Shown: piece after piece, positions 32,573-34,005 of the stretch | Numbering within the stretch: the stretch's first letter is position 1 | How the letters are laid out: every line of letters begins with the position of its first letter | Source of the DNA: an uncultured Acidobacteriia bacterium | GTDB lineage: Bacteria; Acidobacteriota; Terriglobia; Bryobacterales; Bryobacteraceae | Length of the DNA: 54,882 nucleotides | NCBI GenBank assembly: GCA_903892565.1 | Contig: CAITIX010000434.1 | Location: forward strand, 1-54,882 | Reading direction: 5' to 3' | Translations under genes and position numbers: made by a program | Notes under the pieces: model-generated | Database searches by the model: none | Told to the model about the DNA's origin: nothing | What the model saw: the letters and a program-made list of their open reading frames with translations, nothing else

Positions 32573-32941
32573 ATGGAAGGGATGGCCGATAACGTTCGAC
32601 TTTTTCAAGCCGGACCCGATCCGTTCGGGCGCACCTGGGACGTGGAATTCCGCTGGTCTCAGAATGGCATTTCCATTCGTCATGCCGACACCGTGGACGT
32701 CAAGTACGTCTTGCGCACCGCAGGTGAGGAACCACAAGAAAAGGTCATTGCGCTGCAGCATGCGGATCTTCTGGCGCTGTCTGCCAAGTCGGGTCATGCT
32801 CTGACCGATGCCTGGTGCATGAAGCTGGCGGCGAATTATATGAAGTACATGGTCAAATCCGGTGACAATCTTGAAAAGACGCTCGTCACCGTGACGCCTG
32901 CTGAGTTGGAACTCGCCGCTGGAGTCCGGAAGGCCGCCTAG
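32573..32941 (+). CDS. Small protein of unknown function
   Basis: About 122 residues from ATG 32573; starts at 32459, 32561 or 32582 are also open and no clear ribosome-binding site decides. The product mixes strands (GRTWDVEFRWSQNGISIRHADTVDVKYVLR) with a C-terminal helical part containing one Cys and MKYMVKSGDNLEKTLVTVTPAELE. There is no signal peptide and no known family. The gene is isolated from its neighbours. Confidence 0.55.
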   Translation: MEGMADNVRLFQAGPDPFGRTWDVEFRWSQNGISIRHADTVDVKYVLRTAGEEPQEKVIALQHADLLALSAKSGHALTDAWCMKLAANYMKYMVKSGDNLEKTLVTVTPAELELAAGVRKAA

Positions 32942-32967
32942 GCTTTCGATACTGGGGCGTCTGCGAA

Positions 32968-33053
32968 TAGTACTGGAAGCGCACGCTTTTAGTACCAGTA
33001 GCCTCTTCGCATTAGTACAACGAATTGCTCGTTTGTACCGTTGCGCCTGTACG
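32968..33053 (+). promoter_or_regulatory. Phased GTAC-motif region
   Basis: TAGTAC occurs at 32968, 32990 and 33013 (22 and 23 bp apart, about two helical turns). Further GTAC cores are in TTGTAC (33033) and TGTACG (33049). GTACAACGA/TCGTTTGTAC also forms an inverted repeat (33015-33038). This may be a multi-site operator for the small gene at 33118. Confidence 0.45.
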
Positions 33054-33060
33054 CTATAGA
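33033..33060 (+). promoter_or_regulatory. Candidate promoter of the small PEP-CTERM-like gene
   Basis: TTGTAC (33033-33038) and TATAGA (33055-33060) are 16 bp apart. The -35 match is weak. A GCCCC/GGGGC stem (about 33081-33105) lies in the leader, ending just before AAGGAG. Confidence 0.3.
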
Positions 33061-33117
33061 GTGTAATCTAAGGACACCGCGCCCCACGAACGTAAAAGCG
33101 GGGCACAAGGAGATCGC

Positions 33118-33276
33118 ATGACTAAATCAATTGGATTCGCCGTTGTATTCCTCGCCGCCTCCACCGCGTTGCTGGCCGTCCCGGCCACCCCGGAAATTGA
33201 CGCGACCACCGGAAGTTCTGCTTTCGCGCTGATCGCGGGAGCCATGCTGGTGATTCGCGGTCGTCGAGCAAAGTAG
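33118..33276 (+). CDS. Tiny exported protein with PEP-CTERM-like C-terminus
   Basis: A 52-residue protein with AAGGAG five bases before ATG 33118. It has an N-terminal signal-like segment (MTKSIGFAVVFLAASTALLAV), then PATPEIDATTG, a second hydrophobic stretch (SSAFALIAGAMLVI) and a final RGRRAK. The order P-E motif, membrane helix, Arg cluster matches exosortase-type (PEP-CTERM) sorting signals, here with almost no mature domain between signal peptide and sorting signal. No exosortase gene is in the window. Function unknown; a surface peptide or a regulator of the sorting system are both possible. Confidence 0.72.
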   Translation: MTKSIGFAVVFLAASTALLAVPATPEIDATTGSSAFALIAGAMLVIRGRRAK

Positions 33277-33366
33277 GGACCGTGTCATCCTCATCGCGGT
33301 AGGCTTTGGCTCAAGGCCAGGGCCCCGCGGGCTGTTCTTTCTAGTCGAAGCGTTTAAGGCACGCGG

Positions 33367-34005
33367 TTAGGTGTCTTTCAATACTTCGGCGATCTCGCGT
33401 TCGGCGATGGCCCCTTCGCGGATGATGCGCCAGTAGGGTTCGGTGACGTCGATCGTCGTGGCGCCCGCGCCGGAAATGTGTCCTGCATCCAGCACCAGAT
33501 CGATGCGTCCATCCATCGTGCCGAAGACTTCAATGCCTTTCGAGCACGTCGGCTGTCCCGAACGATTCGCGCTTGTCGCAATCAGCGGCTGCGAGAGCTT
33601 TTCGATCAGCGCCGTCGCAACTTTCGAGCGCGATTGCCGCATCGCGATGCGGCCCGTATTGCCCGTGACTTTCAACGGAACGCGCGACGAAGCCGGTGTG
33701 ATGATCGTCAAAGGCCCGGGCCAAAAACGCCGTGCCAGACGATAGAAGCGCGTCGGCAATTCCTTGCCGAGTTCTTCGGCCATCACGATATCGCCCACCA
33801 GCATCGGCAGCGAGCGAACCTGCTCACGTCCCTTGGCGGCGAATACGCGCTGAGCCGCGTGGAGATTCAAAGGGTCTGCGACCAGGATATACAGCGCGTC
33901 GCTGGGAATCGCGACAATGCCGCCGCGTCGGATGACAGCCGCCGCGCGCTCCACTGCGCCTGCATCAGGTTGTTCCCCGTCGATTTCGATAAGGTCGGTT
34001 GCCAC
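33367..34005 (-). CDS. Threonylcarbamoyl-AMP synthase (TsaC/YrdC/Sua5 family)
   Basis: A 212-residue YrdC-fold protein that makes threonylcarbamoyl-AMP for t6A37 of tRNA. Seen are FAAKGREQVRSLPMLV with the K-x-R motif, a WPGPLTIITPA strand and the SANRSGQPT signature. The usual PT-D/E-T-x-YGL motif reads PSDALYILV here, so the loop near the active site has lost its Gly. It may still be the t6A enzyme or a diverged paralogue. The product t6A is the substrate of MtaB, encoded 5 kb away. Confidence 0.85.
   Translation of the reverse strand: MATDLIEIDGEQPDAGAVERAAAVIRRGGIVAIPSDALYILVADPLNLHAAQRVFAAKGREQVRSLPMLVGDIVMAEELGKELPTRFYRLARRFWPGPLTIITPASSRVPLKVTGNTGRIAMRQSRSKVATALIEKLSQPLIATSANRSGQPTCSKGIEVFGTMDGRIDLVLDAGHISGAGATTIDVTEPYWRIIREGAIAEREIAEVLKDT

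Follow-up and report, generated by a model that had tools for sequence, protein, structure and literature searches.

What purpose a protein made of little more than sorting signals might serve, and what controls its gene, is the question raised by a 52-residue open reading frame in the window, the whole 54,882-nucleotide stretch of soil acidobacterium DNA analyzed here. To our knowledge, neither the attachment partner of exosortase substrates nor the role of the smallest substrates has been settled. The initial annotation had described, at 32968 to 33276, a PEP-CTERM-like protein consisting almost only of signals, preceded by three TAGTAC sites spaced 22 to 23 bp apart and by additional GTAC cores. 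When the open reading frame was re-read, these coordinates proved to be exact, and the three sites were recovered along with two further cores (Table 1). The protein, MTKSIGFAVVFLAASTALLAVPATPEIDATTGSSAFALIAGAMLVIRGRRAK, reads by eye as a signal peptide, a spacer of approximately four residues, PEID, a transmembrane helix, and an RGRR tail; that is, a C-terminal PEI(D), a hydrophobic helix, and a basic tail are present on a small exported protein, with helix and signal peptide assigned by eye. A possible leader hairpin (GCCCC/GGGGC with a 14-base loop, 33081 to 33104) was seen by eye directly ahead of the ribosome-binding site.

Table 1. Features read at the mini-protein locus (positions are those of the window)
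Feature	Coordinates	Strand	Detail	Basis
TAGTAC site 1	32968..32973	+	GTAC core at 32970	read in sequence
TAGTAC site 2	32990..32995	+	22 bp after site 1	read in sequence, genome scan
TAGTAC site 3	33013..33018	+	23 bp after site 2	read in sequence, genome scan
Possible weak promoter	33033..33060	+	TTGTAC (33033-33038), 16 bp, TATAGA (33055-33060)	by eye
GTAC core 4	33035..33038	+		read in sequence
GTAC core 5	33049..33052	+		read in sequence
Ribosome-binding site AAGGAG	33107..33112	+	5 bp ahead of ATG	read in sequence
52-aa VPEID-CTERM-like mini-protein	33118..33276	+	ATG 33118 to stop	translation; signal peptide and helix assigned by eye

The mini-protein matched one NCBIfam model, TIGR04161 (VPEID-CTERM), with an E value of 4.3e-6 and 26.7 bits. 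Because this score does not reach the curated cut-off of 33 bits, the name VPEID-CTERM-like is used here; the peptide itself is of this catalogued kind. A Pfam search with the mini-protein returned no family at E values up to 10, and the mini-protein was absent from the 19 matches to PF07589 (PEP-CTERM) in the source genome, 15 of which are over the cut-off. An ordinary PEP-CTERM protein was ruled out on these two results. Thus, the earlier proposal of a mini-protein of the sorting-signal type was borne out, but its PEP-CTERM class was not, TIGR04161 being the family that fits best. At E values up to 0.1, this model matched all six mini-proteins (here termed minis) of the source genome, every one of them below the cut-off; the model is short, and when E values up to 10 were allowed, 9 of 14 control genomes also gave matches, all below the cut-off. 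Two other tiny tagged proteins, at loci L223 (contig C188, ∼59 aa) and L227 (contig C207, ∼56 aa), carry TPAPGT or TPLPGT motifs with matches to the PEP-CTERM model and are perhaps mini-substrates of an ordinary exosortase.

A search of the genome for exosortases, suggested in the initial annotation as a check, gave three matches to PF09721 over the cut-off. One of them, encoded on contig C316, combines an exosortase and a CPBP protease in a single fusion and scores 175.9 bits against a cut-off of 150 with TIGR04162, a model named "exosortase E/protease, VPEID-CTERM system"; the remaining two are other exosortases. Besides its exosortase and CPBP domains, the C316 enzyme has the candidate catalytic residues: Cys246, Arg293, and His314, together with the EE and His residues of the CPBP domain, are invariant in all eight fusions that were aligned, and we take them to be catalytic. 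Two minis of approximately 50 residues lie directly before the fusion gene, and three more stand in tandem on contig C448. Alignment of the six minis revealed a PE motif, a helix, and an Arg tail common to all, which shows the kinship of the window peptide with its five sisters. The window gene is on a different contig from the fusion and does not adjoin the enzyme, and the same is true of the C448 cluster. A conserved place beside the MetH-like gene was rejected: a mini was found within flanks of ∼1.5 kb at 1 of 19 MetH loci, the window's own, with loci counted irrespective of whether a Sua5-like gene adjoins MetH.

These features were compared with known systems. The system resembles VPEID-CTERM/exosortase E (TIGR04161/TIGR04162) in its signal peptide, PEI, helix, and Arg tail and in the over-cut-off fusion that adjoins two sister minis, but differs in that the window peptide scores under the TIGR04161 cut-off and its gene lies away from the enzyme. 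The family minis are also shorter than the 36 labeled outside the family (median of 53 versus 70 aa) and often stand behind GTAC clusters. The C-terminal layout has the same three parts as in PEP-CTERM/EpsH (PF07589, PF09721), a system that the genome also holds, but the window peptide falls outside the PF07589 matches and, at E values up to 10, outside all Pfam families. MYXO-CTERM/myxosortase likewise has a CPBP-type intramembrane protease that takes off a C-terminal helix-Arg tag (PMC11980579). MYXO-CTERM differs in its invariant cysteine, a residue absent from the window peptide, and in the present system an exosortase is fused to the protease. Fusions of EpsH with a CAAX protease were noted in 2006 (PMC1569441), and the portion of that account consulted describes neither mini-substrates nor upstream sites. 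Literature searches of freely accessible papers returned no paper for VPEID-CTERM, unrelated papers only for exosortase E, XrtE, or VPEID, and no paper for exosortase together with PEP-CTERM and Acidobacteria; no paper holding TAGTAC was found in the Acidobacteria literature searched, and none among the matches listed paired GTAC with exosortase or PEP-CTERM. No description of an upstream GTAC array was found in the papers searched, which does not establish its absence from print.

The association of minis with the enzyme was assessed across genomes. Among the 23 genomes of the genus, eight have a fusion over the cut-off, and two more, G003 and G005, have one that is split or partial; minis were present in 11 genomes, namely, the ten with a whole, split, or partial fusion and G018 (Fisher test, 9.6e-6). 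In the family, for which the mini search and the enzyme search were taken to cover the same 150 genomes, 27 genomes had both, 1 had the enzyme only, 5 had minis only, and 117 had neither (Fisher test, 1.3e-23, phylogeny ignored). The enzyme of one genome with both (G133) has an in-frame stop, and one of the five genomes with minis only (G045) has an enzyme split over two frames. In G045 (C2:24639-25875) and in G003 (C29:9260-10034), exosortase and protease appear as two neighboring matches beside a mini, either a real split or a sequence error. When named genomes were searched with the enzyme, 279 relatives were recovered; 68 of the best 80 of these 279 had a mini within 1,500 bp. Twelve were counted as lacking one, among them L118, L130, and L147, which had model matches that were filtered out, and several others that end at a contig edge. 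By record title, the relatives are mostly from Acidobacteriota, with some from Planctomycetota, Gammaproteobacteria, and others. The fusion was also recovered from the cultured acidobacteria Silvibacterium bohemicum and Terracidiphilus gabretensis, which have longer minis and were placed outside the GTAC-rich set. The 107 family-labeled minis have a median length of 53 aa, with PE starting at a median of residue 25, while the 36 labeled outside the family have medians of 70 aa and residue 41; start codons were chosen heuristically, and some are wrong (e.g., that of the first C448 mini). If both signal peptidase and exosortase cut such a protein, few residues of it would be left.

Next, the array in front of the window gene was examined. 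When the window was simulated 300 times with a first-order Markov model, no simulation contained three TAGTAC sites within 60 bp, and none contained five GTAC within 90 bp. In the 4.6-Mb genome, TAGTAC-N14-20-TAGTAC was found at the window locus only, as two overlapping pairs; the reversed pattern, used as a control, occurred 3 times on the forward strand and 7 times on the reverse strand. With the tandem unique to this locus, the exact TAGTAC tandem was ruled out as the mark of a genome-wide regulon. GTAC triples with gaps of 14 to 24 bp were found at the window locus (two overlapping places) and at five other loci (six places), whatever their coding status, against 58 occurrences of the reversed control. 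Only 1 of the genome's 15 ordinary PEP-CTERM genes had a GTAC pair within 30 bp; this gene, L217 (contig C375), has a spacing of 9 bp. A sigma-70 scan of 32900 to 33400 found no promoter site.

Leaders of related mini genes gave a broader view. The main set consisted of 72 nonredundant family-labeled leaders, obtained by merging 80 into 73 groups and leaving out that of the window; duplicates, operon-internal minis, matches with E values over 1e-3, minis without PE near the end, and those with less than 180 bp upstream were also left out. GTAC occurred 84 times in this set (32.6 expected), and 22 of the 72 leaders carried a GTAC pair within 30 bp, compared with 2.34 expected and a maximum of 9 in 1,000 shuffles; the best other permutation of ACGT reached 7 of 72. 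GTACTA, in 19 of the 72, ranked with the most frequent hexamers once Shine-Dalgarno words were set aside, and CTAGTA was in 17. Since the family label of named contigs, which includes Granulicella and Acidobacteriaceae titles, was assigned by hand and partly after the upstream sequences had been seen, a label-free repeat was carried out on same-family genomes. There, 13 of 39 mini genes or operons had a GTAC pair (1.45 expected; shuffle maximum, 6), compared with 5 of 236 cleaned control regions (Fisher test, 6.9e-9). In the genus part of this repeat, 6 of 20 had a pair (0.69 expected), and GTAC occurred 22 times (9.1 expected), a count that shuffles also reached. A pair was present in 11 of 70 named leaders whatever their label (1.59 expected), in 24 of 108 leaders taken together (2.97 expected), and in 2 of 36 leaders labeled outside the family. 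A search for similar arrays, also suggested in the initial annotation, had a divided outcome: the exact TAGTAC tandem was not found elsewhere in the genome, but GTAC clusters are strongly enriched ahead of minis of the family. The joint absence of an exosortase and of similar arrays, which the initial annotation had named as the finding that would count against it, was not observed, given the exosortases above and the enrichment of GTAC clusters before family minis.

GTAC clusters before many related genes suggest a shared putative regulator, and the cooperative regulator proposed in the initial annotation is a candidate reading that fits the window array; its other proposal, that the peptide is a sensor of the sorting system, is a conjecture. 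No regulator gene beside the enzyme was found among the 16 largest neighbor clusters shared by several of 47 loci (45 enzyme loci, C448, and C316); this comparison was built on greedy long open frames, and small regulators may therefore escape it. Fixed spacing between the final GTAC and a TTGAC-like box was rejected as too loose (21 to 25 bp in 5 of 22 leaders, 43 to 45 bp in 3, other distances in 5, and no box in 9). Ahead of the mini gene at L176 (G113, contig C94), four GTAC follow one another at intervals of exactly 9 bp.

Taken with the architecture of the peptide, we consider it probable that it is a body-less substrate of exosortase E, processed in trans, and that its gene is under a putative protein that reads GTAC clusters. 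The mini would be exported through its signal peptide, with the C-terminal helix holding it in the inner membrane and the Arg tail inside. The exosortase E/CPBP-protease fusion of C316 would recognize it at PEI(D) and cut off the helix; the few residues left, a tiny mature product of presumed function, might be passed to a cell-surface acceptor, by analogy with sortases and archaeosortases. The GTAC cluster would be the binding site of a putative DNA-binding protein, an activator or a repressor, that may also control genes of the same kind across the family. Proteins of two signals only would isolate the processing event and offer a clean test substrate, and a shared upstream element would provide a way of finding out when the system is active.

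Three other explanations were weighed against this one. The array might be a product of chance, of composition, or of relatedness among the sequences and no regulator site at all, which we regard as quite unlikely. The enrichment survives the merging of near-identical upstream sequences and is found in same-family genomes alone, and other permutations of the same four bases show none. Points on the side of chance are that controls are mildly GTAC-rich (97 versus 69.0 expected in the first set, which included mini upstream regions, and 84 versus 62.6 after 26 of these were dropped; all control regions were taken from in front of long open frames, not all of which are real genes), that the source genome's sister operons lack a close pair within 180 bp upstream (C316 has two GTAC ∼49 bp apart and C448 none), and that spacing varies. 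The window cores are spaced 22, 23, 20, and 14 bp, while the commonest spacing in relatives, singled out post hoc, is 9 bp, which accounts for 9 of 30 pairs and occurs in 7 of the 22 leaders with a pair. Because the sisters and 50 of the 72 leaders have no close pair, spacing in relatives is most often 9 bp, and the controls are somewhat GTAC-rich, we regard the array not as a fixed site but as a tendency shared across the clade, with the window as an unusually long case.

The remaining two explanations concern the fate of the mini. It might be a precursor from which the spacer residues are set free to act outside the cell as a small signaling peptide, perhaps linked to a lipid, with the GTAC protein taking part in a response to density or surface. 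The near lack of a body in the 107 family-labeled minis and their occurrence in tandem copies would suit such a precursor, as would the distant likeness of the CPBP domain to MroQ (E value of 0.095, far under the MroQ cut-off), which has a role in peptide signaling; however, spacer sequences differ among paralogues, and we hold this explanation to be improbable. Alternatively, the mini might stay intact as a single-helix inner-membrane protein, such as a membrane regulator or an enzyme subunit, with PEI and the Arg tail kept for other reasons. The distance of the window gene and of the C448 cluster from the enzyme would agree with this, as would the 5 of 32 mini-bearing genomes without an over-cut-off enzyme, but the strong co-occurrence with exosortase E and the conserved PE motif, helix, and Arg tail make an intact protein very unlikely.

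What the acceptor might be is suggested, in a testable way, by a possible lipid-modifying gene that neighbors some of the minis. The three tandem minis of C448 are adjoined by a divergent fatty-acid-hydroxylase-like gene (L014:2862-3698; PF04116, 98.6 bits), distantly related to the ornithine-lipid hydroxylase OlsE and far under the OlsE cut-off. A wider scheme, in which exosortase E and signal-only proteins would yield very short peptides, either secreted or at the surface and perhaps lipid-linked, within a regulon of a dedicated GTAC-binding protein, with the hydroxylase-like enzyme shaping the lipid partner, is speculative and seems unlikely as a whole. Of the 24 PF04116 matches in the genus, 9 have a mini within 2 kb, and for 8 of these the distance is at most 400 bp (raw counts with no chance model), and the pairing occurs in 7 of the 11 mini-bearing genomes, the source genome included. 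A PF04116-type gene is also present at 6 of the 80 best enzyme loci.
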